From IMG/VR virus record IMGVR_UViG_3300021247_000548, positions 1 to 29,228 of that record: DNA of 29,228 nt; one strand, given 5' to 3'. Of this stretch, positions 1,500 through 21,259 are shown piece by piece. The stretch's first letter is position 1; each line of letters begins with the position of its first letter. The notes beneath the pieces are model-generated. The model was not told the origin of the DNA, made no database searches, and saw nothing but the letters and a program-made list of their open reading frames with translations. A program made the position numbers and the translations under genes. This DNA is from a virus.

Positions 1500-1796
1500 T
1501 TAAAACATCCAGCCTGTGCTTTTAACTTCTTTATCTAAAGTATCCTCAACCCATTTACCAATAAGTTCCTCGGAGTAGTTACTATCTAAACTAAATAGAT
1601 TTGTAATCTCACCGATTAAATCATAATAAATGATACACTTACGATTATATATATCATAAACAATATAGGCATAATCATCATGTCCTTCTCTAACAAAATA
1701 AATGTTGGTAATCTTATCAAGTATCTTTAGGTCCAAACCGTTCAGATACTTCATAACAACTTTTTCTAATTTAGACTCGGTGATAAGGTATTTCAT
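1500..1796 (-). CDS. MKYLITES-family paralog 2
   Basis: 98 residues; N-terminus MKYLITESKLEKVVMKYL and C-terminus LFSLDSNYSEELIGKWVED place it with its neighbours. The central part (FVREGHDDYAYIVYDI) aligns with the same region of the two upstream paralogs (F.N..DDEFA.IRY). Preceded on its own strand by a TATTTATA box 4 nt from the ATG (1801-1808). Possible role as a packaged protein is inferred from the tag only. Confidence 0.82.
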   Translation of the reverse strand: MKYLITESKLEKVVMKYLNGLDLKILDKITNIYFVREGHDDYAYIVYDIYNRKCIIYYDLIGEITNLFSLDSNYSEELIGKWVEDTLDKEVKSTGWMF

Positions 1797-1818: not shown

Positions 1819-2139
1819 TTACTCAAAAATAAAAAATGATTCCGAATAAATGGTGAATGAGTGAATTACTTTCATTTTTAAGGTATTCCCAACCCAACGA
1901 CCAATAACTTCCTCAGAATCAGATTGATTCAAAGAAAAGAAATCAGAAATTTCTGTAATTAAATCATGTTTAATATAACACCAACTAGCCCTTTCATCAT
2001 ATCTTATTTGGGCAAACTCATCATCTCTTGAGTTAACAAAGTTTATCCAACCCCTTTTTTTAATACGAATAAAATCCTGATTATCAAGATATTTAAAAAC
2101 CGCTCTGTCTAATTGTGATTCGGTGATAAGGTATTTCAT
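1819..2139 (-). CDS. MKYLITES-family paralog 3
   Basis: 106 residues. MKYLITESQLDRAVFKYLD start; centre WINFVNSRDDEFAQIRYDE; C-terminal FFSLNQSDSEEVIGRWVGNT. Most similar to the next upstream paralog (2152-2484), suggesting recent tandem duplication. Own TATTTATA box at 2144-2151. No catalytic motif visible; function unknown. Confidence 0.82.
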   Translation of the reverse strand: MKYLITESQLDRAVFKYLDNQDFIRIKKRGWINFVNSRDDEFAQIRYDERASWCYIKHDLITEISDFFSLNQSDSEEVIGRWVGNTLKMKVIHSFTIYSESFFIFE

Positions 2140-2151: not shown

Positions 2152-2484
2152 TTAGTTAGAGTGAACTCTCAAAATTTCGGACTTGTTGAAGACAACCCAT
2201 TGTGAGTAAGTGACTTCCCTTTGTAGGGTATTCCCAACCCAATTACCGATAATATCTTTAGAGGTTGCTTCATTTAAAGAAAATAATACAGAGATGTCCT
2301 CAATTAAATTTAAATATATGTGACACCAACCATTTTTTTTATGGTATCTAATTTTGGCAAATTCATCATCTTCTGAATTAACAAAGAATATATTATTACT
2401 TCTTTCAATTTGAATAAAGTTTTGACTATCCAAATATCTAAAGATTACTCTGTCTAATTGTGATTCTGTTATAAGATATTTCAT
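2152..2484 (-). CDS. MKYLITES-family paralog 4
   Basis: 110 residues; MKYLITESQLDRVIFRYLD start, FFVNSEDDEFAKIRYHKK centre, LFSLNEATSKDIIGNWVGNT near the end. It starts one base after the stop of 2486-2803, so it is probably translated from the same message. Same tag logic as its neighbours: I-T-E at residues 5-7 fits (I/L)-x-E. Confidence 0.82.
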   Translation of the reverse strand: MKYLITESQLDRVIFRYLDSQNFIQIERSNNIFFVNSEDDEFAKIRYHKKNGWCHIYLNLIEDISVLFSLNEATSKDIIGNWVGNTLQREVTYSQWVVFNKSEILRVHSN

Positions 2485-2824: not shown

Positions 2825-3190
2825 GATAATAACTATTATTGATTTAAGACCTGTTCCATCACATAATTCATAACAGACATTTCTACATCTGTTGTACATA
2901 CCTTATGATTTAATACCTCTTCCACCTTAGAATGTACTGGCTTCCACCTCCATTCGGTTGTGGATACTTTACTATCTAATACTTTTTTTACCGTCCTTTT
3001 TTGGGCTGCGTTTATTTCAAAAGTTTCGGATACCTTATTATTTAATACCTCTTCCATCAGCGACTCGGTAGAATAGTCAAAGCCAATCGTTGTGGATACA
3101 TTACTATTTAATACCTCTTCCACCTCTTTCGAATGGCCTCCGCCTCCAAAAGTCGTTGTGGATACCTTATTATTTAATACTTCTTCCACC
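2825..3190 (-). repeat. CRISPR-like array, 36-nt repeat / 30-nt spacer, inside an ORF
   Basis: Six units with an exact 66-nt period. Conserved 36-nt blocks lie at 2891-2926, 2957-2992, 3023-3058, 3089-3124 and 3155-3190, plus a degenerate copy at 2825-2860. Every interval is exactly 30 nt. The blocks differ from their consensus at 1-6 positions, whereas the intervals show no mutual similarity. Plus-strand blocks start GTTGTGGATACC and end CTCTTCCACC; on the minus strand they end AAGGTATCCACAAC. Period, repeat length, spacer length and a decayed terminal copy match a CRISPR array. However, 66 is divisible by 3 and the whole array is read through by the ORF 2836-3426. Its first block also encodes the family-conserved WVEEVLNNKV. 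A coding tandem repeat is therefore the main alternative. Confidence 0.85.
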
Positions 3191-3426
3191 CAAGAAGATA
3201 GTATTGGTTCAAACTCACTCTGTTCCAAAGAAAAAATACTGAAAAACGATGGGAAGAATGAGTATCTCCAATATAAACATCCCTGTATAGACAACTGAAA
3301 ATACCAATAACTATTTTCCCTATCAATAAACCATACAGAGCCATTGTACGGGATTATCTCCACATTACCCAACTCCTTATATAGTCGTTTAAAAATTAGT
3401 TGTTTTAATCTATCTGTAATAACCAT
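2836..3426 (-). CDS. Divergent MKYLITES-type paralog with 22-residue repeats
   Basis: 196 residues. Residues 1-79 resemble the neighbouring paralogs in layout: a start helix (MVITDRLKQLIFKRLYKEL), an aromatic centre, then IFSLEQSEFEPILSSWV. Residues 80-91 (VEEVLNNKVSTT) correspond to the normal family C-terminus. The block then recurs every 22 residues near 102, 124, 146, 168 and 190, with unrelated linkers such as TFGGGGHSKEV and EWRWKPVHSKV. The stop falls inside the last, degenerate repeat. Either the protein gained a repeat tail, or a CRISPR-like array grew from, or was inserted at, its 3' end while keeping frame. The family domain is solid; translation of the repeat tail is uncertain. 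Confidence 0.65.
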   Translation of the reverse strand: MVITDRLKQLIFKRLYKELGNVEIIPYNGSVWFIDRENSYWYFQLSIQGCLYWRYSFFPSFFSIFSLEQSEFEPILSSWVEEVLNNKVSTTTFGGGGHSKEVEEVLNSNVSTTIGFDYSTESLMEEVLNNKVSETFEINAAQKRTVKKVLDSKVSTTEWRWKPVHSKVEEVLNHKVCTTDVEMSVMNYVMEQVLNQ

Positions 3427-4249
3427 AGAGCAAATATAGTAAGAAATTACGAATTAAACAAACTCATTCCCCCATTCCACTATCGTGTCGTTCCATTCCC
3501 CTTCGGGTCATTACACTGAATGGGTCCATTCCTTTATTTACTTCCTAATTTCCCCCATATATAAGAACCCCTGAATGAAAGACACATAGTATGAAGGGAC
3601 ATAACATATTACTTCTAAAGGGTATAATATAATGTCTTAACTAATTATAACCCCTTACGGGTATAATAACTATAAGAAGACAACAGTATATACCTGTTAG
3701 GGTATAATATATATGGTGGATGTTAAGGGGACAATATCCCTTATAAGATACAAAACCCTACAGGGTTATCCCTTATATAACACATTATGTCCCACATTTT
3801 CTTAACCTAAAGGTTAAGTTTTCCACCACTATAATTGTCCATATATTGTGTCTATATGGTAAGGGGAAGTTTAAGAAACCCCGTTGAAGACACTATGAAT
3901 TCCCTTTTCCGTTGAAGGATTCTAACAACTAAAGTCTGTCCACGCTCATTTATTCTTATGTCCTATTTTTATCTGGAAAATGAATATACTTAAAAAAACC
4001 CTTCTCACACTATCAGGAGGACCATTTTTTTCACTTTTCATATAACCAAAAACCCCTCTCACATATACGTCAGTGGGAAAAAGTGGGAACATTAACCTAT
4101 GGACAATACACATAATATACACTATATTTATAGTTGTGATTATGTCTAAAAGTGGTCAAGGGGATTATCCCCCATCTGACGCTCCCCTGACATTTTGACA
4201 AAATCAAGAAAAAACGAATAAAAAGTTATTAACAATTCCCCCTGACGAT
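3427..4249. other. Long structured non-coding region
   Basis: 823 bp with no convincing gene, richer in GGG/CCC runs than its flanks. It contains three GGGTATAATA repeats (3620-3629, 3659-3668, 3700-3709; spacing 39 and 41) and two TATCCCTTATA repeats (3735-3745, 3767-3777). Dyads are AACCCT/AGGGTT (3754-3767) and CTTAACC/GGTTAAG (3801-3818). Complementary short segments (GGTGGA near 3715, TCCACC near 3821) could fold the whole 3700-3830 stretch. A TATTTATA box at 4125-4132 precedes an 18-codon ORF (4142-4198) or the gene at 4250. It could be an origin, a structured RNA or a regulatory hub; none is demonstrated. Confidence 0.5.
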
Positions 4250-4510
4250 ATGATGAGTGAGGATTCTATAATGGAGATACTGAAAAAAGTAAGGGTTGTA
4301 AAGGACCCTTTACGGGATGTTATTGCTGTGACCTTATATTTCCAAGGGGAAAAGGTGGGTAAGATGGAGTATAGAAAGGCTACACTACCATACCAAGGGG
4401 ATATGAAGATACTTACTTTGTATTCACTTACCCCTGAGTTCATGGAGTTGTTCAAGGGTCAGGAGAATCCGATACGTATTTTGGACAACCATGTTAAAGG
4501 GTTTGTTTAA
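4250..4510 (+). CDS. Unknown small protein
   Basis: 86 residues (or 85 from the second ATG at 4253). Begins MMSEDSIMEILKKVRVVKD; the middle looks beta-rich (IAVTLYFQGEKVGKMEYRK). No recognisable domain. Its 3' end overlaps the convergent metallopeptidase gene by 17 bp. Start choice is ambiguous because no ribosome-binding site is visible. Confidence 0.6.
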   Translation: MMSEDSIMEILKKVRVVKDPLRDVIAVTLYFQGEKVGKMEYRKATLPYQGDMKILTLYSLTPEFMELFKGQENPIRILDNHVKGFV

Positions 4511-4880
4511 AAGTTTTCCATACTACACTCTTGTATTTCTTTTCATTTCCCCGAGCTTCCACTTCAAAGGGACAATCCCAATATCCGTTTTTCTTCATGG
4601 ATGATGCGTAGTTACGTTTGATACCTCTTTGTATGTGGTGGGTGTATTCATGGATGATTGTTCTAACGAACATGTCCATTGTCACACATGTTGAGGGGTT
4701 GATGACCAATGATTCAAAATCGTATTGTCCGTATGAGTTTGCTAACCCGTTTCTAATCTTTAGTTTCGGGGATGGTTTGTTTCCATGACCGAGTATCTTT
4801 CTTGTGATACCGATTATGGTTAGCCCCATCTTTCTTAGTTCAGGGGTTGTGTATGTGTTAAGGTTATCTTTTAGTTTCAT
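4494..4880 (-). CDS. HExxH zinc-metallopeptidase-like protein
   Basis: 128 residues. HEYTHHIQ at residues 77-84 is a clear HExxH zinc-binding motif in a hydrophobic helix (FVRTIIHEYTHHIQ). It is followed by CPFEVEARGNE (103-113), whose Glu residues could supply the third ligand, as in small SprT- or gluzincin-like phage peptidases. The preceding LKIRNGLANSYGQYDFESLVI fits the edge strands of such folds. Substrate unknown; processing of virion or host proteins is possible. Second gene of a two-gene minus-strand operon, overlapping its partner by 1 nt (TAATG). The motif is definite; activity is inference. Confidence 0.75.
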   Translation of the reverse strand: MKLKDNLNTYTTPELRKMGLTIIGITRKILGHGNKPSPKLKIRNGLANSYGQYDFESLVINPSTCVTMDMFVRTIIHEYTHHIQRGIKRNYASSMKKNGYWDCPFEVEARGNEKKYKSVVWKTFKQTL

Positions 4881-5302
4881 TAGTCGATGTATTTGAATGT
4901 TATTTTACCCACAAGTTCGTTGTTGAATGCTTGACCTGAGATTTGTGCCATCTTGAAGAACAAGGGGATGTTTGTCTTGCTAATCATTCTTTCCAACTCC
5001 ATTGTTGTTACCTGTTTTCTGTTCTTGAAGAAACGTAATCTGTCCGAGTTGTTCCACCAATTCTTTACGGGGATTCTGTTTTCAGAATATCTTCCGCCCA
5101 CTTTCTTTGCTGTCACTTCGAAGTTGATGACATGAGCGTAAGATTGGGTCTTGTAGTTCCACTGGTCTGTGCTGCTAACCGATACGAAACGAACTGAACA
5201 ATCACCCAATCCTTCGAACATACATGGGATGGTTAACATGTTTGTCTTCTTTAAGAACTTCTTAACAAGGTTGGTTGATTGTTTGTCTGCTGTTAGTTTC
5301 AT
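4880..5302 (-). CDS. Unknown protein upstream of metallopeptidase
   Basis: 140 residues, beginning MKLTADKQSTNLVKKFLKKT. Basic, with an aromatic/Asn patch PVKNWWNNSDRLRFFKNRK. No known domain recognised. Shares one base with the downstream HExxH gene, so the two are probably co-translated and may act together. Driven by a canonical Bacteroidetes promoter (-33 TTG, 19 nt, TATATTTG at 5329-5336), which suggests expression by the host polymerase. Confidence 0.75.
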   Translation of the reverse strand: MKLTADKQSTNLVKKFLKKTNMLTIPCMFEGLGDCSVRFVSVSSTDQWNYKTQSYAHVINFEVTAKKVGGRYSENRIPVKNWWNNSDRLRFFKNRKQVTTMELERMISKTNIPLFFKMAQISGQAFNNELVGKITFKYID

Positions 5303-5328
5303 GTGGTGGGGTGTCTTTTATTGTTCTA

Positions 5329-5336
5329 CAAATATA
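5329..5336 (-). promoter_or_regulatory. Bacteroidetes promoter for 4880-5302 operon
   Basis: Minus-strand TATATTTG (matches TAnnTTTG), with CTTG 19 nt upstream (plus-strand 5356-5359). The ATG lies about 26 nt downstream. Confidence 0.7.
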
Positions 5337-5516
5337 CAACAATTTTCTTCCCCCACAAGAAAAATCTTCCTTTTTTTTTAAAGGCAGGGTGGAGTACACA
5401 CTCCAAGCATTGTTGGTGCCAGCCCTTTATCCCCTTATCGTTATAAGGTACACTTACGGGGCTAAGTTACAACAAAAATAGTTAAGAAAAAATTAGGATG
5501 TTAACTTTCTTCGCCG

Positions 5517-5524
5517 TATCTTTG
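5517..5524 (+). promoter_or_regulatory. Possible Bacteroidetes -7 element
   Basis: TATCTTTG matches TAnnTTTG exactly, but no TTTG is found 19-21 nt upstream. It would give a leader of about 110 nt to the gene at 5635. Confidence 0.4.
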
Positions 5525-5622
5525 TGTTGACGCTCTTCTTATAAAAAAAAACATATAAGGCACCAAGCTAAGTTATGGCGGATTTTTTTAATAAACAAAT
5601 ATATTTTTCACATATATTATTC

Positions 5623-5630
5623 TATATTTG
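5623..5630 (+). promoter_or_regulatory. TATATTTG promoter, near-leaderless
   Basis: TATATTTG, then TATA, then ATG. The start codon lies 4 nt after the element, so transcription would begin at or next to the ATG. Confidence 0.65.
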
Positions 5631-5634
5631 TATA

Positions 5635-5916
5635 ATGAAACAAAAGGTATATACAGTAAATGACTTTGACTTCAAACCCCATGGTGTTATAGCAGGTGCC
5701 AAACAAGGTATGCTTAATCTCCCCAATGGTATTACCGTTTCAATAGTAGGTGGTGGTGAGATGGGTAGATTATATGGTGATGGTGTAGATACCTTTGAGA
5801 TAGCTGCTTGGAGAGACAATGGTGATTGGATTGACCTTGGGGATGACGATGCAATACTAAGATATGTCCCCAAAGATAAGATACCATTTATCATATTTGA
5901 TTTACTAAAAAAATAA
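5635..5916 (+). CDS. Unknown small protein
   Basis: 93 residues from the ATG 4 nt after TATATTTG (MKQKVYTVNDFDFKPHGVIA). The upstream in-frame extension is the promoter itself and is rejected. The body has Gly-rich SIVGGGEMGRLYGDGVD followed by an acidic WIDLGDDDAI patch, then a hydrophobic C-terminus. No known family recognised. Untagged; host-type promoter, so probably early. Confidence 0.75.
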   Translation: MKQKVYTVNDFDFKPHGVIAGAKQGMLNLPNGITVSIVGGGEMGRLYGDGVDTFEIAAWRDNGDWIDLGDDDAILRYVPKDKIPFIIFDLLKK

Positions 5917-5961
5917 TACATACACAGGAAACCTTTATAACTAATCACTCGTCTATATAAT

Positions 5962-6147
5962 ATGAAGAAATTTATTCTACCCCTAATCATGTTAGTAGTT
6001 ATACTAACATCTTGTTCTACCCCACAACATGGGTACAACTACAAGAAACATTCTAACAGACAACAAACAATGTATAAACAAACTAAACGTGTGAACAAGG
6101 GGAAGAACCAACTGAACCACCAATGCTCACCAAAGAAACACAGATAA
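5962..6147 (+). CDS. Small lipoprotein
   Basis: 61 residues. MKKFILPLIMLVVILTSC is a classic type II signal peptide with lipobox LTSC (Cys18). The mature part is short, basic and rich in His, Asn, Gln and Lys (HGYNYKKHSNRQQ). It would be acylated and anchored in the inner or outer membrane facing the periplasm. Followed after 2 nt by a 32-residue ORF with a membrane segment; an o-spanin/i-spanin-like pair is conceivable but unproven. Similar small lipoproteins also occur in flavobacterial hosts. Confidence 0.75.
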   Translation: MKKFILPLIMLVVILTSCSTPQHGYNYKKHSNRQQTMYKQTKRVNKGKNQLNHQCSPKKHR

Positions 6148-6149
6148 CT

Positions 6150-6248
6150 ATGAGACGATTTACCATCACACCCAATCAAGGTATCATCCTTTACTGTATA
6201 CTAATGACTACCATAGTATTAGTAGTTAAAGGTTGTGACCTAATGTAA
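6150..6248 (+). CDS. 32-residue membrane mini-protein
   Basis: ATG 2 nt after the lipoprotein stop. MRRFTITPNQG is followed by one hydrophobic segment, IILYCILMTTIVLVVKGC, and ends DLM. The spacing implies coupling to the lipoprotein gene. The KGC near the end could be a degenerate lipobox or simply the end of a membrane helix. Short, so coding status is moderate. Confidence 0.5.
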   Translation: MRRFTITPNQGIILYCILMTTIVLVVKGCDLM

Positions 6249-6470
6249 CAGGGAGGGGGAACTTATAAAAAGTTATCAACACCCCCTATTACCCCCTCCC
6301 CCTTCCTGACATACTGACACCCCCCCTCCGTATCCCCCCTTTTATAGGGGGTTTTTTTGTCATATAGGGGGGATAATCCCCTCGAAAAAATCCTGGAAAA
6401 AATTTTTAGAAAAGCGACCCTACTATTTATTATAGTGTGTATATTTAAAAAATAAATTTTTGGAAAAATT
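6249..6470. other. Intergenic region with C/G homopolymer runs
   Basis: 222 bp without a gene. Long C tracts (6284-6301, 6320-6339) precede a terminator and an AT-rich stretch with a TATTTATTATAG box near 6424 that may start the next transcript. Confidence 0.4.
6334..6358 (+). terminator. Rho-independent terminator
   Basis: CCCCC, about 8-nt loop, GGGGG and seven T, downstream of the lipoprotein gene pair. Confidence 0.75.
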
Positions 6471-6740
6471 ATGAAAAAGGATAGGAAGGGTGAGTTCTTA
6501 AAAGATTGGATTGAGGGTAAGATGTCAAAACACGATTGGTTTAATCGTGTGAAGTATGTGGAGATTGAGACATATAGATTTAGGAATAAGGAAATACCTG
6601 ATTATGTATTTTATCTTGATACGGGTGGGTTTCAGGTATCTTTGGAATTTGAGGATGATTTTGATTTTATCTTTAAGATATTTTTCCCAAAGGATAAAGA
6701 TTATGACCCAACTGCGGTATGGGAGTTTAGATATATTTAA
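6471..6740 (+). CDS. Small protein, DKD..TAVW family
   Basis: 89 residues, basic start (MKKDRKGEFLKDWIEGKM), then beta-rich aromatic segments. It ends FFPKDKDYDPTAVWEFRYI, which matches the end of the gene at 9150-9461 (LFPLDKDGELTAVWDIQHK), so the two are paralogs with different N-termini. It lacks the tag present in its relative. Function unknown. Confidence 0.72.
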   Translation: MKKDRKGEFLKDWIEGKMSKHDWFNRVKYVEIETYRFRNKEIPDYVFYLDTGGFQVSLEFEDDFDFIFKIFFPKDKDYDPTAVWEFRYI

Positions 6741-6754
6741 TAAAATAATATAAT

Positions 6755-7105
6755 ATGAAAAAGGTTGTAAGATTAACGGAGAACGATTTAACAAGAATTG
6801 TTAAACGAGTAATAAATGAGAAAAGAGATATGATTCGTATTACGGGTGATTATAGTGGGGCTAAACATGTACTTGGTAGTTCTGCATCTCCTAAAGATAT
6901 TATTAATGTCTATAATGATTCTGTTGAAGAGGGGATACCTCTTAATCGTTATTCTGATGGTGTGTTCTATAATCAGAATGGTGAGTCAGTTCCTTTGGAC
7001 GTTATTTTGGATGACTTGAATTATGTCATTCTTGGTTATGAAGAAGAACAATTAGATTGGGATGAGGATGATATATGGGATGGTATAGATAATGATGATT
7101 ATTAA
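6755..7105 (+). CDS. Tagged protein (MKKVVRLTENDLTRIVKRV)
   Basis: 116 residues. The first 22 residues (MKKVVRLTENDLTRIVKRV, then INE) are the commonest tag of the window, with L-T-E at 7-9 and I-N-E at 20-22. The rest is acidic, ending in a run of Asp/Glu (EEEQLDWDEDDIWDGIDNDD). A basic tag on an acidic body resembles T4 internal-protein precursors only in general design. Followed by a strong terminator. Confidence 0.8.
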   Translation: MKKVVRLTENDLTRIVKRVINEKRDMIRITGDYSGAKHVLGSSASPKDIINVYNDSVEEGIPLNRYSDGVFYNQNGESVPLDVILDDLNYVILGYEEEQLDWDEDDIWDGIDNDDY

Positions 7106-7134
7106 CCCCTCCAATGATAGTATTGTTGGACCGA

Positions 7135-7157
7135 CCCCTTGTTATTCAAGGGGTTTC
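7135..7157 (+). terminator. Rho-independent terminator
   Basis: CCCCTTG, TTATT loop, CAAGGGG then TTTCTTATTT. It ends the 6471-7105 transcript and abuts the next promoter. Confidence 0.8.
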
Positions 7158-7162
7158 TTATT

Positions 7163-7170
7163 TATATTTG
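7163..7170 (+). promoter_or_regulatory. TATATTTG promoter, near-leaderless
   Basis: TATATTTG followed by TATT and ATG. A TTG lies 21 nt upstream, within the terminator stem. Confidence 0.65.
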
Positions 7171-7174
7171 TATT

Positions 7175-7522
7175 ATGACAAAAGAGATTATAGACAAATA
7201 CCTTAGGGGATATTTGGTATATCATTATAAGGGATGGTATTGGGTTCTTCATCCTGAGACTAAGGAATGGATTGTTAATGTTGCAGATAGTGGTTATACC
7301 TTTTTCAACAGAGACTTTTGGAAAACTATTTCTTATTTTTTTCCACCTAAGGATTTAACTAACGATATTCATAGTTGGGTTGTTTATAAGTTGGGAGTTC
7401 CTATGGGTAAACATTGTTATCCTGATTATATTCCACATGATTATAATTGGAAGGATGAGTTTAGTAATGATAAGATTGATGAAGTTGTAAGTAAGGGTAA
7501 TATTTGTTTTTCTATAACATGA
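7175..7522 (+). CDS. Unknown aromatic-rich protein
   Basis: 115 residues from the ATG 4 nt after TATATTTG. MTKEIIDKYLRGYLVYHYKG then WYWVLHPETKEWIVNV. The segment FFPPKDLTNDIHSWVVYKLGV resembles the conserved end of the MKYLITES family (F..L....I..WV..K.G), so it may be an untagged relative of that fold. A Tyr/Trp/His-rich tail (HCYPDYIPHDYNW) follows. Function unknown. Confidence 0.75.
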   Translation: MTKEIIDKYLRGYLVYHYKGWYWVLHPETKEWIVNVADSGYTFFNRDFWKTISYFFPPKDLTNDIHSWVVYKLGVPMGKHCYPDYIPHDYNWKDEFSNDKIDEVVSKGNICFSIT

Positions 7523-7602
7523 CCCCCCTAACTTAAAATGTATGGTTATATGTAAAAAAAATTTTGGGAAAAATTTGGGGAATTGTGTAATATATAAAAA
7601 AT

Positions 7603-7663
7603 ATTTTTTTCTTTGTTGTTCAATTCCCCCTACCCCCTTTTTTATTTTTAGTGTATTTATTGT
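7603..7663 (+). repeat. Upstream cassette, copy 1
   Basis: 61 bp almost identical to 7969-8029: a T-rich run, CTTTGTTGTTCAAT, two C5 tracts, TTTTTTATTTTTAG and TGTATTTATTG, ending just before an ATG. A diverged copy lies at 11289-11346. Probably a duplicated promoter segment. Confidence 0.75.
7654..7661 (+). promoter_or_regulatory. TATTTATT box before 7667
   Basis: TATTTATT 5 nt before the ATG, inside the duplicated upstream cassette. Confidence 0.5.
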
Positions 7664-7666
7664 TAT

Positions 7667-7969
7667 ATGAGAAAAAATATCACACTATTAACTGAAGAAG
7701 AAGTAAACCATATCGTTAAACGTTTGGCTAAGAGAATTGAACCTAAAAAAAATTTACATGATGAAATTTTTGATTATTTAAAAGAATATATTAATAAAGG
7801 TTGTGTTAAATTTAAATCGTCTGACAGGTACATTACTGTGGATGTTGGAGCTCCTCTTGATTTTCTTGACGCTGGGTTTGAGAGAGAGGACGCGAATAGA
7901 GTTAAAGGTAAATTACGAAGTAAAGGATTTACTAGTTTAGGTGTTGGTTTATTTATAAAAGAAAAATAA
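7667..7969 (+). CDS. Tagged basic small protein
   Basis: 100 residues, MRKNITLLTEEEVNHIVKRL, a variant of the LTE...IVKR tag. The remainder (LHDEIFDYLKEYINKGCVKF, then a SSDRYITVDVGAPLDFLDAGF segment and LRSKGFTSLGVGLFI) looks like a small alpha/beta domain that could bind nucleic acid, but no family is recognised. Sits between two copies of the same 61-bp upstream cassette. Confidence 0.75.
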   Translation: MRKNITLLTEEEVNHIVKRLAKRIEPKKNLHDEIFDYLKEYINKGCVKFKSSDRYITVDVGAPLDFLDAGFEREDANRVKGKLRSKGFTSLGVGLFIKEK

Positions 7970-8029
7970 TTTTTTTTCTTTGTTGTTCAATCCCCCAACC
8001 CCCTTTTTTATTTTTAGTGTATTTATTGT
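7969..8029 (+). repeat. Upstream cassette, copy 2
   Basis: Second copy of the 61-bp segment at 7603-7663, differing by about three positions. It overlaps the stop codon of the preceding gene and ends 3 nt before the next ATG. Confidence 0.75.
8020..8027 (+). promoter_or_regulatory. TATTTATT box before 8033
   Basis: TATTTATT 5 nt before the ATG, in cassette copy 2. Confidence 0.5.
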
Positions 8030-8032
8030 AGT

Positions 8033-8419
8033 ATGAAATATATTATAACCAAAGAACAATACACAAGAGTTGTTAATAGTTTAATTGATGTCTTTTTCAA
8101 AGATGTTAAAATAAATGTTGATTATGATGATAGTATTACATTACTTGTTGGTGATGATGAAGTTGCATGGATTGCAACAAATAATAACCCCGTATTAACA
8201 GAAAAATGTAAACACGAACTTGTTATCTATACGGAAACTCTTGATAAAATAAAATATTTTGCACCACTTATCAGAAAAAAATTATTTGCAAAATTAATGA
8301 TTAACCATTTCTCAAAATTAACGGGAATTGATATTGATTGTTTTTGGATTGATGAAGAGGGTGAACACAGTGACGATAATGCGTTTAAGTATAGAATTAA
8401 AAAGAAGAAAAGAAAATAA
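8033..8419 (+). CDS. Tagged paralog pair member A1 (MKYIITKEQ)
   Basis: 128 residues; paralog of 8752-9138. Shared: MKY.IT..QY...V..LIDVFFKD at the start, VGG/D.EVAW, C.HELVIY, LIRKKLFAKL / FKKKVFSKI, G(I/V)DIDC, and a lysine-rich tail (KKKKRK). The Cys of C.HELVIY and of DIDC are conserved in both and could be a metal or disulfide pair. It is separated from its paralog by an unrelated tagged gene, giving an A-B-A order. Function unknown. Confidence 0.8.
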   Translation: MKYIITKEQYTRVVNSLIDVFFKDVKINVDYDDSITLLVGDDEVAWIATNNNPVLTEKCKHELVIYTETLDKIKYFAPLIRKKLFAKLMINHFSKLTGIDIDCFWIDEEGEHSDDNAFKYRIKKKKRK

Positions 8420-8424
8420 TTTAT

Positions 8425-8733
8425 ATGAAATACCAAATCACACCTGAACAGTTGGACAAAGTTACAAAATCTTTTTTTGATAAGATATTTGAACATGCCA
8501 AGTGGAGTGAAGATAGTGCTAGTAGTTACGGTGATGCGTGGCACGGTATTTTTAATCAGGATGGTCAGATGTTGGTTGGTCATCCAGAATATGATAGTTC
8601 CACTTATTATACTGACGGGACATATTTTAATAATATGTGGGATTTCTTTGGTGTTGACGCAAAAGAATTTACTGATGCTATGGGTAGATATCTTAAAAAA
8701 AAATATGGATGTGAGTTTGATAGGATTTGGTAA
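8425..8733 (+). CDS. Tagged MKYQITPEQ protein
   Basis: 102 residues. MKYQITPEQLDKVTKSFFDK, an aromatic/Asp-rich centre (SSYGDAWHGIFNQ...STYYTDGTYF), and the family end MWDFFGVDAKEFTDAMGRYLKKKYGCEF, comparable with 11348-11656 and the minus-strand MKYLITES genes. Five nt after the previous stop, so co-transcribed. Function unknown. Confidence 0.78.
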   Translation: MKYQITPEQLDKVTKSFFDKIFEHAKWSEDSASSYGDAWHGIFNQDGQMLVGHPEYDSSTYYTDGTYFNNMWDFFGVDAKEFTDAMGRYLKKKYGCEFDRIW

Positions 8734-8738
8734 TCAGG

Positions 8739-8746
8739 TATTTATT
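8739..8746 (+). promoter_or_regulatory. TATTTATT box before 8752
   Basis: TATTTATT 5 nt before the ATG, in the 18-bp gap after the preceding gene. Confidence 0.5.
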
Positions 8747-8751
8747 ATAAT

Positions 8752-9138
8752 ATGAAATACCAAATCACAAAACAACAATATTCTAAACTTGTCTATAAGT
8801 TAATTGATGTATTTTTTAAGGATGCTGAATTTACCGTTGAGGAAGATAGATATGAGGGTCATGTGTCTTATGATATTATTGTTGGTGGTGAGGAAGTTGC
8901 TTGGGTTACCCCAAAACAAAGTAGTTATACTACTAGGGGATGTGAACATGAACTTGTAATATATGATACAACTATATCTAAAATAACAAACTTTGTTCCG
9001 ATTTTTAAGAAAAAGGTATTCTCAAAAATACTTACTAAATATTTTTCTGATATTATTGGTGTAGATATTGATTGTATCTATTTTGATTATAGGGGTGAAG
9101 ATATTATATATAGAAAAAAAATCAAAAAGAAAAAATAA
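8752..9138 (+). CDS. Tagged paralog pair member A2 (MKYQITKQQ)
   Basis: 128 residues, the same length as its paralog 8033-8419 and alignable throughout: LIDVFFKDAEF, GGEEVAWV, CEHELVIYD, FKKKVFSKILTKYFS, GVDIDCIYFDY, then a lysine-rich end. The nucleotide sequences have diverged strongly, so the duplication is not recent and both copies have been kept under selection. Function unknown. Confidence 0.8.
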   Translation: MKYQITKQQYSKLVYKLIDVFFKDAEFTVEEDRYEGHVSYDIIVGGEEVAWVTPKQSSYTTRGCEHELVIYDTTISKITNFVPIFKKKVFSKILTKYFSDIIGVDIDCIYFDYRGEDIIYRKKIKKKK

Positions 9139-9149
9139 TTTATTGTTAT

Positions 9150-9461
9150 ATGAAAATTATAATTACGGAGTCACAGGATTTGTCATTAAGGAAGTTGAAC
9201 TTCTTAACAGAATATATTGAAAATCTATTACCTGAAAAGTATCCGTGGATTAGAGGTGTTAAGATTGATGTTTCATCTTATAACCATAAAGGTAGAATAT
9301 TACCTCTTTATAATATTATATTTGATGCTGGTGGGTATAGTGTATACTCACACGAAGAGGGTACTGATATTGAAGAAGATATTAGTGCCATGGTTCGTCT
9401 GTTATTCCCTTTAGACAAGGATGGTGAGTTAACCGCTGTGTGGGATATTCAGCATAAATAA
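9150..9461 (+). CDS. Tagged DKD..TAVW family protein
   Basis: 103 residues. MKIIITESQDLSLRKLNFL combines the I-T-E tag with a body ending LLFPLDKDGELTAVWDIQHK, shared with the untagged 6471-6740. The same body with and without the tag argues that the tag is a separable module. Last plus-strand gene before the inserted CRISPR/TnpB module. Confidence 0.78.
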   Translation: MKIIITESQDLSLRKLNFLTEYIENLLPEKYPWIRGVKIDVSSYNHKGRILPLYNIIFDAGGYSVYSHEEGTDIEEDISAMVRLLFPLDKDGELTAVWDIQHK

Positions 9462-9488
9462 AAACATTATATTACACAATGTTTTACA

Positions 9489-9756
9489 GTTGTATATACC
9501 TTTTAAATTGTGATGTCAAACAACAAACTTCTTCCCTGAAAAATGGTCATTACTGTTGTATATACCTTTCAAATTGTGATGTCAAACAACGATTTGAATT
9601 CATGTTTTCCTTGTTGTATATACCTTTCAAATTGTGATGTCAAACAACTTCCACATTAGTGTCCGTGAAATTCAAGAGTTGTATATACCTTTCAAATTGT
9701 GATGTTAAACAACTCATTCCATTTTACAGAAAAATCACCGATAGTTGTATATACCT
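9489..9756 (-). CRISPR. Short CRISPR array beside a TnpB-type nuclease
   Basis: Four 36-nt repeats at 9489-9524, 9555-9590, 9613-9648 and 9678-9713, plus a partial repeat at 9744-9756. Repeats 2 and 3 are identical; 1 and 4 each differ by one base. Plus-strand repeat: starts GTTGTATATACCTTTC, centre AAATTGTGATG, ends TCAAACAAC, with GTTGT/ACAAC inverted ends. Spacers are 30 nt (9525-9554), 22 nt (9591-9612), 29 nt (9649-9677) and 30 nt (9714-9743), all different. On the minus strand, the nuclease strand, repeats end AAAGGTATATACAAC. The partial repeat keeps exactly this guide-proximal end. I therefore prefer minus-strand transcription, although a degenerate distal repeat would also fit the plus strand. 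No cas1, cas2 or other cas gene is in the window. Confidence 0.9.
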
Positions 9757-9872
9757 AAATTAATTTAAGTATTGAAGGTATTTGGTGAGTGGAACATAAT
9801 ATTCCCGTACTAACTACATCCTGTTCATTCAGGATTCACCTTTAGGGTGTACAACCACCCTGACTTAAATTA
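9744..9872 (-). ncRNA. Putative omega-RNA / tracrRNA scaffold fused to the array
   Basis: Strong nested structure between the nuclease stop and the array. An outer 10-bp stem pairs TAATTTAAGT (9761-9770) with ACTTAAATTA (9863-9872). Inside are GGTGA/TCACC (9784-9788, 9836-9840) enclosing ATCCTG/CAGGAT (9818-9835), and AGGGTG/CACCCT (9844-9861). On the minus strand, AAATACCTTCAAT (9783-9771) can pair with the repeat segment TTGAAAGGTAT with one bulge, like an anti-repeat. The RNA would then run through AGGTATATACAAC (9756-9744) into spacer 4. This matches a TnpB omega-RNA, or a tracrRNA-crRNA natural fusion. It could also be only the right-end palindrome of an IS605-type element. Expression is unproven. 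Confidence 0.6.
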
Positions 9873-9922
9873 GCCAATATGTTAAAGAACGTTTTTCTTA
9901 TTATAAATGTAAAGAATTATTT

Positions 9923-11239
9923 TTACATTGTCAAATTATCTTCCAATGATTCTTGTTTTTTCTTCCAAGTTTCAATTTTACCTTTTTTGGATTTTGGTTT
10001 TTCTTTAAACCCTTCTTTCCTTGATATGTTTATAGCTGCATTAATATCTGCATCTTGTACTTTTCCAAACATATTACAATCCACAGTTTGACAAGTGAAC
10101 TTTGAAACATCTTTTTTATCTCTTGCGGTTTCATGAACAACACCACAACAATGACAAGTTTTTGACGTGTCTTTTGCAACTACATACTCAATCTCAATTC
10201 CGAATTCTTTGGCTTTATATTCTATCATTTGTTGTAGTTGATAGTATGGCCAGCTCTTAAAAAAGTATTCATTTGAATCTTTGGTAATGCCTGTCAAATC
10301 TTCCATTCTAATTTTTCCAATAGCATTTTCTACACAATATTTAATAATAAGTCTTGACAACTTATGATTCATTGTCTCAATATAGTTATGTTCAGAATTT
10401 CTGATAGCATCAAGTTTTTTCATTTTAGTGTTTCTTCCATGACCACCTTTAGCATATTTCAGACCTTTTGATAAATCCTTTCTTCTTTTTTGAAATTGCA
10501 TTCTTGTATGTGACATAGACTCCCCGAGGTCAATTTGTGGAACATATTCCCCATCACTTCTTGCAAGTGTTACAGGTCGGTTAATACCCATGTCAATTCC
10601 AAGTACAACATCTTTATTTACCACCTCAAGTTTTTTTGGTTCAAACTTATAAGTTAGATTTAAAAAGATTTTACCATTTTGAATAGTAATGTTTGAGTCA
10701 CAACCTTTGTATTCGCCCGACAATACTCTATCAATGATAGATTTATTATCTGACCTATCTCTACCAAAGTGGAGAATAAACGTCAAATCATTTGTGATTT
10801 TAAAATGATATTTGTTATCTACAAGTGATAGTTTGGAACTTCCAAACATAAAGTAAATTGGCATTTTATCTTTTGTAAAAGAAGGTATGGAAACTTTTCC
10901 TGATATTATATTTCTTTTATTTTCAGTTAAAGTTTTTCCAACAGTATTACTTAATGCCCCTCTTATTGTTGATGGTATGTTTGAAAACTGTTTTGTTGAA
11001 TTATATGCGGTATTTCGCAATGGGTGTCCCAACAACTCTACAAATTTTTGATTTGCTGCTGATGCTGAAAATTGAGGGTTATTTTTTTTGAATTCATCTA
11101 AATTGAAAAAATCCATCAAAACATTTCTGATGATATTATTTCCAATTTCACATGACACTTCAGAGTATCGTTTAAGTAAATTGGTGATAATCTTTTTATC
11201 ACCTTTTGGAGTTAGTTCTATTTTTCTTGTCTTAATCAT
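9923..11239 (-). CDS. tnpB: TnpB-type / miniature type V RuvC nuclease
   Basis: 438 residues, the size of IS200/IS605 TnpB and of the smallest Cas12 (type V-U/V-F) effectors. Visible motifs: RuvC-I GIDMGIN (Asp216), RuvC-II MEDLTG (Glu313), the YKAKEFGIEIEYV...DTSKTC segment, a zinc ribbon with Cys362/Cys365 and Cys383/Cys388, and RuvC-III DADINAA (Asp398). All catalytic residues are present, so it should be an active RNA-guided DNase. The N-terminal WED/REC-like half is divergent. No TnpA transposase is nearby. The opposite orientation to the flanking genes marks it as an insertion. The adjacent array and structured RNA suggest CRISPR-like use rather than, or besides, homing of a transposon. 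Own promoter at 11244-11251. Confidence 0.88.
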   Translation of the reverse strand: MIKTRKIELTPKGDKKIITNLLKRYSEVSCEIGNNIIRNVLMDFFNLDEFKKNNPQFSASAANQKFVELLGHPLRNTAYNSTKQFSNIPSTIRGALSNTVGKTLTENKRNIISGKVSIPSFTKDKMPIYFMFGSSKLSLVDNKYHFKITNDLTFILHFGRDRSDNKSIIDRVLSGEYKGCDSNITIQNGKIFLNLTYKFEPKKLEVVNKDVVLGIDMGINRPVTLARSDGEYVPQIDLGESMSHTRMQFQKRRKDLSKGLKYAKGGHGRNTKMKKLDAIRNSEHNYIETMNHKLSRLIIKYCVENAIGKIRMEDLTGITKDSNEYFFKSWPYYQLQQMIEYKAKEFGIEIEYVVAKDTSKTCHCCGVVHETARDKKDVSKFTCQTVDCNMFGKVQDADINAAINISRKEGFKEKPKSKKGKIETWKKKQESLEDNLTM

Positions 11240-18471: not shown

Positions 18472-19296
18472 TTATACGGTTACTTCTTGTTGTAGTAGTT
18501 CGTAAGCTCTTGCTAAACGAGTCATACCAATTCCACCACCGAAACGTGGGAAGAAATCGTGTGACAAGAACTCTTCTAATTCTTTTTCTACTCTTTCTTT
18601 TCCGAATAATTCAAAAAGTTTTTCAGAGTATTTTCCATTTTCTATTGTGTAGAAATTATTTCTCATTTCTTCTACGTTAGAACTTCTTTCTGCCGAACCG
18701 ATTGTTTCTTGTCCGTAAAGGATTACATCCACTTTGTTGAAAATCTTGTTTTCACTCTCTCTCATGTTCCAAAATGGGTTAGTTCTGTATGGGAAGTTTT
18801 GTAATGACACAACAGGTCCTTTCTCTTCCCACATTCTTGTTTCGTGTTCATTCTCTAAAATGGATACTCCACCATATTCTTCACAAACATCATCGTAGTT
18901 AACTTCTACTGCTTTATCAAATCCAAGATAATCTAAAAGTTCTGATTCAAGTTTTAACATTTCTTTCATTCCACCCTTTGATTCAAATTCGAACATTGGG
19001 AAAATCATTTCATGACGACCAGGTATTGGGTCTTTTTCTTGTCTATAAGACGTTGAAATACAATATACACCATTCCATTCAGGATTCTTAAGAAGTTCGT
19101 ATTCTAACCACATTTGACCCGTCTGTGGTAACGGCCATACTTCTCCTTGGTAGTTGAATGTTGTTATTGAGTGTGGATTTTCACACGCGGCCAAGATTGA
19201 TAATCTTGATTGGGTTGGAACTTCTTTAAAACCTTTGTTTTGAAAGAACGTTCTCATTTTTTGAACTAACTCGTTGTAAGTTTCTGTGTTTTTCAT
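18472..19296 (-). CDS. Class II aminoacyl-tRNA-synthetase-like core protein
   Basis: 274 residues. A motif 2-like segment spans residues 84-105 (YRQEKDPIPGRHEMIFPMFEF: Arg85, Glu87, Arg94, His95, Glu103/105). Motif 3 is FGGGIGMTRLARA (252-264, Arg260). Layout is closest to the Asp/Asn/Lys subclass, comparable to proteins annotated amino acid-tRNA ligase-related. No N-terminal anticodon-binding domain is present. It should adenylate an amino acid; the acceptor could be tRNA, a protein (as in EF-P modification) or ammonia (as in AsnA-type asparagine synthesis). A strong hairpin plus T8 lies on its own strand 35 nt upstream. A metabolic or translation-modulating phage gene; exact reaction unknown. 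Confidence 0.82.
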   Translation of the reverse strand: MKNTETYNELVQKMRTFFQNKGFKEVPTQSRLSILAACENPHSITTFNYQGEVWPLPQTGQMWLEYELLKNPEWNGVYCISTSYRQEKDPIPGRHEMIFPMFEFESKGGMKEMLKLESELLDYLGFDKAVEVNYDDVCEEYGGVSILENEHETRMWEEKGPVVSLQNFPYRTNPFWNMRESENKIFNKVDVILYGQETIGSAERSSNVEEMRNNFYTIENGKYSEKLFELFGKERVEKELEEFLSHDFFPRFGGGIGMTRLARAYELLQQEVTV

Positions 19297-19492: not shown

Positions 19493-21259
19493 ATGAGGAA
19501 TTTATTGACTGAAGTTAGTAAGATGAAAAACATGATGGGTTTGGAAGAGGCTGCTAAACCAAAATATAGCCCTGAGGTAAAATCGCTTATTGAATTTTTA
19601 AAAGACAATAAAGTATATAGTGCTCAAATTCAAAAATTCATTAATAAAATTGAAGAATATTCTAAAGAAGGTTTAGTTGATTTTGGTTTACTTACAAGAG
19701 GTATTGGAAAAACTTTAAAATTAAAAGGTAGTAAGGATATTAATATTTTTGAATTCTTTAAACAACTTACTAAATCATTAGAGAAACGAAAAACAAAAAA
19801 AGAAGTTGTTAGTCCTGAAGAAGAACCATCAATTTTAGATAAAGACATTTACAAGAAAGAAATATTTTTCTTACAGGTTGAACTTTTAAAATTACAGGAG
19901 TGGTTAAAACAAACAGGTAAGACTGTTATTATTGTTTTTGAAGGAAGAGACTCAGCGGGTAAAGGTTCAACAATTAAGAAATTTACTGAAAACTTAAATC
20001 CAAGATATTATAAAGTTATTGCTCTTGGTATTCCAACACCTGACGAAAGAAAGAACTGGTGGGATAGATATAGAAATCAAATTGAAAAGGGAAAGATAAA
20101 CTTCTTTGATAGAAGTTGGTATAATAGAGGATTAGTTGAACCTGTTATGGGTTATGGTTCGTCAGAAGAGTACGAAGACTTTATGGATAATGTTCAGGAC
20201 TTTGAAGAATCATTGGTTGTTGATGGAGATTACTTATTCAAACTTTGGTTTTCAATAGATAAAGAAACTCAAGCCAAGAGATTTGATTTCAGACAAAAAT
20301 CACCATTGAAATATTGGAAGTATTCAGAGAATGATGAGAAGATGCAAGATGTGTGGGAGAAGTTCACAGAGTATAAACAAAAACTTTTTGATAAGACATC
20401 TACAGTGAATCATCCGTGGGTTGTTTTGGATTCTAACGATAAAAAGATTTCAGGTCTAAACTCAATTAGATACGTTTTACAGAATATTCCTTACGCAAAT
20501 AAGGATGAGGATGTTTTAAATAAAGACTTTCCTGAAGCGATGACGGTTTTAAGACCAAATATTAATGAACAATCTGTTATTGATAATATTAAAAAAATAA
20601 GTGGTATGCAACCATCAAAACAAGAACCAAATTTAATGGATATATGGTCATCTAAGGCTCCACCAAAAGACCAAATGACATCAAATTCAGGAGGTGTTTT
20701 TGATGACGCGATGAAAATGATGAAAACAAAAACACAAATAAATAAAACAAATAATATAAACAAAGATAATTTAGACGAAGTTATAGGTTGCTCAGGTTAT
20801 GGTCCGTCAACACCTCAATTTAAATTAGCTAAAGTTATGGCACAGAAAGAGGGATGGAATAAAACTGATAATAATGGAAAAGGTTCAAGAAGTTATAGAA
20901 ACAATAATCCAGGTAATTTAGATTATCAGGATGGTTTTAAATCGGTTGATAAAGATGTTACAAAAGAAACTACGTTAGACGGTAAAGTTGGTAGATTTGC
21001 AAAATTTAGTTCACCATGTTTAGGTTCAAAGGCTTTAATAGAACAAAAAATCATTAAATGGTCTAAAGGTGAAATGCCGGATTATGGTCAAGCTCCTAAT
21101 TATAATAAAGGTCAAAAACCAACTCTTAAGCAATTTATGTATACCTACGCACCACCTACTGAAAATGACACCACAAAATATATAAAATTTATTTTACAAA
21201 GTTTAAATAACCCTAAATTTAATGAAAATACCTTAATGAAGGATATTTTAAAAATATAA
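19493..21259 (+). CDS. ppk2: Tagged polyphosphate kinase 2 fused to RNNNPGN virion domain
   Basis: 588 residues. Residues 1-20 (MRNLLTEVSKMKNMMGLEEA) are a tag-like start with L-T-E and L-E-E. About 120-335 is a full PPK2 domain: Walker A GRDSAGKGST (151-160), LNPRYYKVIALGIPTPDE, Walker B-like FFDRSWYNRG (204-213), YWKYSENDEKMQDVWEKF, and VLDSNDKK...LNSIRYVLQNIP. It uses polyphosphate to phosphorylate nucleoside mono- or diphosphates (or the reverse). After a low-complexity linker (360-430), residues 435-575 hold RNNNPGNL (469-476) and TYAPPTENDTTKYI (551-564). These are hallmarks of phage structural/lysozyme-like proteins of the RNNNPGN type. PPK2 proteins normally lack such a domain. Both domains look intact. 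Confidence 0.88.
   Translation: MRNLLTEVSKMKNMMGLEEAAKPKYSPEVKSLIEFLKDNKVYSAQIQKFINKIEEYSKEGLVDFGLLTRGIGKTLKLKGSKDINIFEFFKQLTKSLEKRKTKKEVVSPEEEPSILDKDIYKKEIFFLQVELLKLQEWLKQTGKTVIIVFEGRDSAGKGSTIKKFTENLNPRYYKVIALGIPTPDERKNWWDRYRNQIEKGKINFFDRSWYNRGLVEPVMGYGSSEEYEDFMDNVQDFEESLVVDGDYLFKLWFSIDKETQAKRFDFRQKSPLKYWKYSENDEKMQDVWEKFTEYKQKLFDKTSTVNHPWVVLDSNDKKISGLNSIRYVLQNIPYANKDEDVLNKDFPEAMTVLRPNINEQSVIDNIKKISGMQPSKQEPNLMDIWSSKAPPKDQMTSNSGGVFDDAMKMMKTKTQINKTNNINKDNLDEVIGCSGYGPSTPQFKLAKVMAQKEGWNKTDNNGKGSRSYRNNNPGNLDYQDGFKSVDKDVTKETTLDGKVGRFAKFSSPCLGSKALIEQKIIKWSKGEMPDYGQAPNYNKGQKPTLKQFMYTYAPPTENDTTKYIKFILQSLNNPKFNENTLMKDILKI

Follow-up and report, generated by a model that had tools for sequence, protein, structure and literature searches.

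CRISPR (clustered regularly interspaced short palindromic repeats) arrays are usually regarded as non-coding stores of guides. Two arrays of CRISPR-like repeats are considered here, both on the minus strand of a 29,228-nt stretch of viral DNA (IMG/VR record IMGVR_UViG_3300021247_000548, positions 1 to 29,228, referred to as the window). Array 2 (9489-9756) adjoins the gene for a small Cas12-like nuclease, and array 1 (2825-3190) lies in frame inside a protein gene. The two differ in nature although a single CRISPR repeat class underlies both, and array 1 suggests that CRISPR-style DNA capture writes into phage protein genes.

Among described systems, the type V-F/V-U3 mini-Cas12 loci resemble array 2 in having a Cas12u3/Cas12f-profile nuclease, adjacent 36-nt repeats and a structured RNA region between the two. 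Array 2 differs from them in being carried by a phage, in that no Cas1 was found in the phages of its repeat class (nine contigs, many of them fragments), and in a first handle, the guide-proximal repeat end, that is truncated and fused to a putative scaffold in the manner of a natural single guide. The type II-C and VI-B arrays of Flavobacterium columnare have 36-bp repeats and acquire spacers of 28-32 bp, mostly 30; Cas1 serves another array in trans, and a GTTGT motif lies at the leader-distal end (PMC8092290), with a counterpart in array 1 on the side away from the domain. Those arrays are bacterial, non-coding and accompanied by Cas proteins, whereas array 1 lies within a phage protein gene. 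RNA anti-CRISPRs (Racrs) and phage solitary repeat units are, like array 1, phage-encoded mimics of CRISPR repeats. Racrs are small non-coding RNAs (PMC10651486), whereas the array-1 repeat is coding and is amplified together with inserts in array form. False CRISPRs, such as coding tandem repeats and STAR elements, are defined by the lack of diverse spacers and of companion cas genes, and share with array 1 a repeat-spacer look in a coding gene (PMC5294841). In array 1, however, the inserts are fully diverse, and the repeats match a repeat class of genuine CRISPRs.

Array 1 and its gene family

Array 1 forms the 3' end of an open reading frame (ORF) at 2836-3426 on the minus strand and is in frame with it, a setting absent from the earlier note on this DNA, which had been made from the sequence alone and had proposed one nuclease as the reader of both arrays. 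The five 36-nt repeats lie at 2891, 2957, 3023, 3089 and 3155 with an exact pitch of 66 nt, followed by a truncated sixth copy at 2825-2860. Each unit of 66 nt corresponds to 22 codons and encodes VEEVLNNKVSTT plus ten variable residues. The features, in the order of translation, are as follows.

2836-3426, minus strand: array-1 gene, 196 amino acids, with a folded N-terminal domain and a CRISPR-like coding tail (ORF, relatives, AlphaFold2)
3155-3190, minus strand: array 1 repeat 1, which completes the folded domain and encodes the repeat peptide
3125-3154, minus strand: array 1 insert 1, 30 nt, unrelated to the other inserts
3089-3124, minus strand: array 1 repeat 2
3059-3088, minus strand: array 1 insert 2, 30 nt
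3023-3058, minus strand: array 1 repeat 3
2993-3022, minus strand: array 1 insert 3, 30 nt, encoding FEINAAQKRT
2957-2992, minus strand: array 1 repeat 4
2927-2956, minus strand: array 1 insert 4, 30 nt
2891-2926, minus strand: array 1 repeat 5
2861-2890, minus strand: array 1 insert 5, 30 nt, encoding DVEMSVMNY.., conserved in related loci L001, L003, L004 and L006
2825-2860, minus strand: truncated, degenerate terminal repeat (VMEQVLNQ-stop), the sixth copy, score 21

Insert 3 recurs as FEVDAAQKRK in the arrays of L015, L024, L026, L030, L031 and L039, and the terminal partial motif is also present in relatives. AlphaFold2 models residues 1 to ~94 of the protein, the first repeat included, with a predicted local distance difference test (pLDDT) score of ~90 and the remainder with less than 50; the later units are probably a disordered, variable peptide tail. 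Repeat 1 is homologous to a single motif, W-V-x-x-x-L-x-x-x-V, of paralogous genes, in which W79 and V80 are invariant. A fold search with the N-terminal domain gave no PDB match at E <= 0.001, and the protein matched no Pfam or PHROG family.

Relatives of the gene together with a pattern scan added 25 further stretches, giving 42 arrays after duplicate removal. All 42 are in frame in genes with the same N-terminal domain, of which up to three stand in tandem, and their tails consist of 3-9 units, each a 36-nt repeat with an unrelated 30-nt insert. The insert length is exactly 30 nt in 131 of 139 distinct inserts. Across 114 insert clusters, none of the 1,026 in-frame codons is a stop, whereas stops make up 9.2% and 3.8% of the codons in the two remaining forward frames, and it seems that inserts, once retained, are maintained as peptides. 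Within arrays, inserts agree at 8.2 of 30 positions against 7.9 for shuffles. Inserts are either near-identical or at chance level, with no intermediate similarity between clusters, and this rules out a gradual divergence of duplicated units. Insert DNA has a guanine-cytosine content of 40%, against 32% in the phage fragments, which fits a foreign source without naming one.

The arrays also tend to be polar. Those of related phages have colinear units in common, and what sets them apart is first-position units and the loss of internal ones. The repeat consensus decays from 5' to 3' in 26 of the 29 arrays with at least four units, and private inserts are found at the first position in 7 of 25 cases, against 13 of 111 elsewhere (P = 0.045), counts that come from related arrays.

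Set beside genuine CRISPR arrays, array 1 has near-identical repeats, degenerate at the distal end, unrelated spacer-like inserts of regular length, and a repeat related to those of bona fide arrays. Its inserts are frame-constrained and coding, and no Cas effector or adaptation gene was found in the 21 array-1 records. Many of the records used here are fragments, and genes beyond contig ends can escape the Cas1 and nuclease searches. The poor spacer diversity of false CRISPRs is not seen.

Several observations place part of the constraint on the repeats at the DNA level. In 200 of 206 units the repeat starts with G, even though this base falls at the third codon position and the codons concerned specify many different amino acids. 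Adjacent repeats are often identical at 35-36 of 36 positions around unrelated inserts, and 19 adjacent pairs are identical throughout. Where diverged genes encode the same amino acid, they use the same codon 80% of the time in the first repeat and 52% of the time in the N-terminal domain.

A shared repeat class

The repeat class was obtained by scanning IMG/VR for GKTG-N13-TTTGRARGGTAWNNACAAC, a pattern that required the handle and whose design was shaped by array 2, array 1 having no part in it. The scan returned 11 stretches, most of them arrays of 36-nt repeats with mostly 30-nt spacers and one (L097) a single copy; real arrays of the class have stop codons in every frame. A supposed likeness to Cas13b direct repeats served only the design of a scan, and a sequence search of papers gave no such match. 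Eight repeats from the arrays of other phages, the window excluded, were made into a profile and scanned over 2.2 million positions; the last 19 positions of this profile are conserved by construction because the search pattern required the handle.

The array-1 consensus reaches a profile score attained by 0 of 3,000 shuffles and 0 of 20,000 phage background 36-mers, and the array-1 repeats match the class in the sense orientation. Aligned in register, the repeats of the two arrays agree at 21 of 36 positions, with P = 0.0013 by dinucleotide shuffles. The earlier note had described 36-nt repeats on the minus strand in both arrays, which is confirmed, and a common guide-proximal end, which is confirmed for the consensus sequences (12 of 14 positions) and less so for single copies: the exact end AAGGTATnnACAAC is present in all four full copies of array 2 and in only two of the five of array 1 (2891 and 3155). 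The likeness withstands the comparison with shuffled sequence that had been proposed for it, with P = 0.0055 for the best 14-nt match when all offsets and both strands are allowed (dinucleotide shuffles). A chance likeness of the repeat ends is ruled out by the shuffles and the profile background. The statement that the remaining two thirds differ suits the window pair (9 of 22 positions identical) better than the families, as other array-1 lineages reach up to 26/36 identity with members of the class. The ends recur in other phages as well. The array-2 end (TTTGAAAGGTATATACAAC) is found in arrays on other phage contigs, and the array-1 families keep the shared end in 21 phage records without Cas12/TnpB. 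The CRISPR-type end is oriented handle-then-spacer in both arrays.

The further proposal, that this end marks both arrays for the nuclease at 9923-11239, is not supported. Seven of the nine class contigs encode a Cas12f/TnpB-type protein, and these proteins fall into at least three dissimilar lineages beside the same repeat class. Three are 40-41% identical to the nuclease of the window over nearly the full length and the others ~26% identical over part of it, so that the repeat class of array 2 goes with several unlike small nucleases; that of L103 fits other Cas12f/Cas12u4 models best. On the side of array 1, no Cas12/TnpB was found in the 21 records, nor in ten of them with the nuclease itself as query, all possibly fragments, and the inserts are under a reading-frame constraint. 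The window, unlike those records, does carry a nuclease as well as array 1. The shared end is better explained by a common repeat class or DNA-integration machinery than by a common effector, and it is more likely to be fixed by integration machinery than by an effector. The array-1 repeat pattern had no match in bacterial genomes, which were scanned for this repeat and the nuclease only.

Codon choice within the array-1 repeats was compared with the class by recoding the repeats at random with phage codon usage and scoring them against the profile. In every one of the 75 distinct repeats the actual codons are more class-like than the recoded ones, z being ~3-5 with a mean of 3.25 over the distinct repeats, and the controls, namely reversed profiles, column-permuted profiles and random coding 36-mers, are flat. 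Read from codon choice and frame, the repeats are defined at the DNA level, with the protein level mattering too.

Each of the eleven best profile matches outside arrays is the C-terminal motif (WVENTLQMKVTNT or a variant of it), on the antisense strand, of an MKYLITES-type gene. The MKYLITES-type genes are paralogous to the array-1 gene, whose first repeat aligns with their motif. Three lie in the window.

2152-2484, minus strand: MKYLITES-type paralogue with a single repeat-like motif in antisense (plus strand 2203-2238), profile score 17.0
1819-2139, minus strand: MKYLITES-type paralogue with a single repeat-like motif (plus strand 1858-1893), score 19.6
1500-1796, minus strand: MKYLITES-type paralogue, motif WVEDTLDKEV, with little repeat likeness, score 3.2

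The score of 19.6 exceeds all background outside the family, and the gene at 2152-2484 has a weak second half-repeat 65 nt downstream (8/13). More generally, in 9 of 19 paralogues the first 13 nt of the gene's own motif recur, with at least 10 of 13 matches, at a distance of 65-67 nt downstream, compared with 3 of 753 control positions; three of these recurrences are exact and one carries the private base of its gene. The inserts so delimited are 29-31 nt long and do not keep the frame. In phage G008, exact second repeats follow inserts of 31 and 29 nt, the repeat after the 31-nt insert being a full 36-nt copy. A length of ~30 nt is thus likely to be a property of the insertion itself, and the strict 30 nt of the array-1 genes would be what remains after frame selection.

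By its sequence, array 2 is an ordinary small phage-encoded CRISPR array, predicted to serve the adjoining mini-Cas12 (Cas12f/V-U3-like) nuclease, 3' of whose gene it sits. It comprises four 36-nt repeats, GTTGTTTGACATCACAATTTGAAAGGTATATACAAC on the minus strand, one truncated copy, and spacers of 30, 22, 29 and 30 nt.

9489-9524, minus strand: array 2 repeat, differing from the consensus at one base
9525-9554, minus strand: array 2 spacer, 30 nt
9555-9590, minus strand: array 2 repeat
9591-9612, minus strand: array 2 spacer, 22 nt
9613-9648, minus strand: array 2 repeat
9649-9677, minus strand: array 2 spacer, 29 nt
9678-9713, minus strand: array 2 repeat
9714-9743, minus strand: array 2 spacer, 30 nt, immediately behind the truncated handle
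9744-9756, minus strand: truncated array 2 repeat copy (AGGTATATACAAC), joined to the putative guide scaffold
9757-9922, minus strand: putative scaffold or trans-activating CRISPR RNA (tracrRNA) region, structured, with a short candidate anti-repeat
9923-11239, minus strand: predicted Cas12f/V-U3-like RNA-guided nuclease, 438 amino acids (PADLOC, Pfam, NCBIfam, solved Cas12f chains)

The nuclease matches Cas12u3 (2.7e-94) and Cas12f (3e-94) in PADLOC, Pfam TNB (7.4e-19) and NCBIfam guided_TnpB (8e-52), and it aligns to solved Cas12f chains (7.8e-50). With its GIDMG, RMEDLT and DADINAA motifs it has the RuvC and TNB parts of the Cas12f/Cas12u3 family, and array 2 supplies the adjacent array with a conserved repeat that characterizes type V-F/V-U3. 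Neither viral nor bacterial contigs gave a close relative of the nuclease when scanned with a peptide pattern; such relatives were reached later through the repeat class. The scaffold region has a fold z of -2.5 when the truncated repeat is included, and its candidate anti-repeat (ATACCTT against AAGGTAT) is 7 nt only, not long enough to tell the two arrays apart. By duplex energy, the complementarity of either repeat to the scaffold is no better than that of shuffles, and Rfam gave no match near the gathering score. The long array-2 repeat pattern had no match in IMG/VR, nor did the one spacer tested there.

At 9744-9922 the first handle of array 2 is truncated and fused directly to the structured scaffold region, so that the first guide could be a natural single-guide RNA; the layout is intermediate between a TnpB omega-RNA and a split tracrRNA and CRISPR RNA (crRNA). 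Among the class arrays, L103 (9336-10006) and L106 (3766-4436) have adjacent spacers that differ at only two bases (GGAAACTTAGG.. and GAAAACTTAGG..), and duplicated units at the degenerate end, in a phage mini-Cas12 array that adjoins a 428-amino-acid Cas12f-like nuclease. The array repeats of L099 and L102, on one 72,946-nt contig, begin with GTTGTGGATACCT, whose reverse complement is identical to the end of the array-1 repeat over 13 nt, and the class is quasi-palindromic.

Origin of the coding array

The plan of the array-1 genes, a folded domain, n units of a 36-nt repeat and a 30-nt insert, a truncated repeat and a stop codon, could have arisen by insertion of the CRISPR-adaptation type into repeat-like gene ends followed by selection for frame, and we consider this probable. 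Each insertion would add ~30 bp of captured DNA and duplicate the 36-bp repeat that adjoins the domain, and selection would retain the in-frame events. As the first repeat completes the folded domain and would be regenerated by each insertion, the domain would survive while older units become a variable and probably unstructured peptide tail. Because no Cas1 was found in these phages, we infer that the inserting enzyme is most probably a host Cas1-Cas2 acting in trans on the repeat-like gene end. The fuller proposal, in which Cas1-Cas2 repeatedly writes 30-bp DNA into gene ends and the in-frame captures form an inherited, open-ended peptide library or a spacer sink, is tentative, and we give it slightly less than an even chance.

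Several results weigh against insertion of captured DNA. The arrays are related and their counts are not independent, and the enrichment of novelty at the first position is only modest. The inserts, first-position ones included, show a mild in-frame codon bias (P ~0.005-0.03), which capture in random phase would not predict. Searches for a source of the inserts found none in ~1.1 Mb of DNA from related phages, in the phage collection or, with two inserts of the family, in IMG/VR. No Cas1 was found in the 21 array-1 records, many of them fragments. A trans-acting Cas1-Cas2 is hypothetical, and the nearest matches of the sheath protein, scattered over T4-like phages of many hosts, do not single out a host. 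The solitary-motif paralogues show no excess codon conservation.

A rival reading is that array 1 is an ordinary tandem-repeat protein tail whose linkers are hypervariable. Its units would spread by recombination, both among the arrays of phages that co-infect a cell and among paralogues in tandem, its inserts would diverge as peptides, and its CRISPR likeness would be secondary. The strict reading frame, the coding-like codon phase even in first-position inserts, the colinear shared units with internal losses and the synonymous-rich changes in shared varying inserts, where 23 of 50 changed codons are synonymous and 27 non-synonymous, all favour this reading. We nevertheless think it unlikely, as the inserts are near-identical or chance-like without a continuum, the repeat boundary falls within codons, synonymous codons are tuned to the CRISPR repeat class, and paralogues carry out-of-frame inserts of 29-31 nt between exact repeats. 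On the diverse inserts, the codon-internal boundary, the codon tuning and the out-of-frame paralogue inserts, a plain protein tandem repeat fails.

It is very improbable that array 1 is a second source of guides for the Cas12f-like nuclease, as the earlier note had it. The handle-then-spacer orientation is correct for such a role, as are the 12/14 shared end, the sense-orientation likeness to the class and the 30-nt inserts like those of real class arrays, but the 21 array-1 records lack a Cas12/TnpB, the class pairs with dissimilar nucleases, the inserts are under coding constraint, neither repeat has anti-repeat complementarity better than shuffles, and no protospacers were found. There is a slim chance that the repeats are mimics in counter-defence, occupying crRNA-handling proteins or rival crRNAs as mRNA, or acting as DNA decoys of Cas1-Cas2; they would be sense in the mRNAs of array-1 genes and antisense in those of the one-insert genes, and would resemble RNA anti-CRISPRs. 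In these phages no site outside arrays resembles a CRISPR repeat more strongly than the gene ends, and there is a precedent in solitary repeat units of phages that act as anti-CRISPRs (PMC10651486). Known Racrs, however, are small non-coding RNAs and the array-1 repeats are coding, and the solitary motifs have no excess codon conservation. Mimicry is compatible with adaptation-type insertion, as its function.

Other genes and implications

Elsewhere in the window, the gene at 19493-21259 (plus strand) encodes a 588-amino-acid protein with a PPK2 polyphosphate kinase domain (1.6e-70) and a C-terminal stretch that resembles phage endolysin, tape-measure and injection transglycosylase families, and that at 18472-19296 (minus strand) encodes a 274-amino-acid class II aminoacyl-tRNA synthetase-like protein (tRNA-synt_2, 5.6e-13). 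Near-identical short N-termini (MKKVIRLTESDL..IVKRV.., MKYLITESQL..) are found on many unrelated proteins of the window (ORFs at 6755, 13373, 14784, 17158, 17775 and 25907, for example), possibly as a signal for capsid targeting or protease processing. In the phage G003, a 4,766-amino-acid ORF at 168785-183085 consists mostly of short Gly/Ser/Thr-rich repeats (GSSGTSGSS..) and is likely to be a giant fibre protein.

As judged by a limited search of the open-access literature, a coding CRISPR-type array that gains captured DNA would be of a new kind. The analysis defines a phage mini-Cas12 repeat class that is common to unlike nucleases, and it indicates that the dismissal of CRISPR-like arrays in ORFs as coding tandem repeats is unwarranted. 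With the repeat-bearing gene ends, the expected insertion point and the insert length known, the idea of insertion is directly testable. If it is true, DNA capture by Cas1-Cas2 would be a route to protein diversification, or phages would have evolved gene-borne decoys of adaptation.

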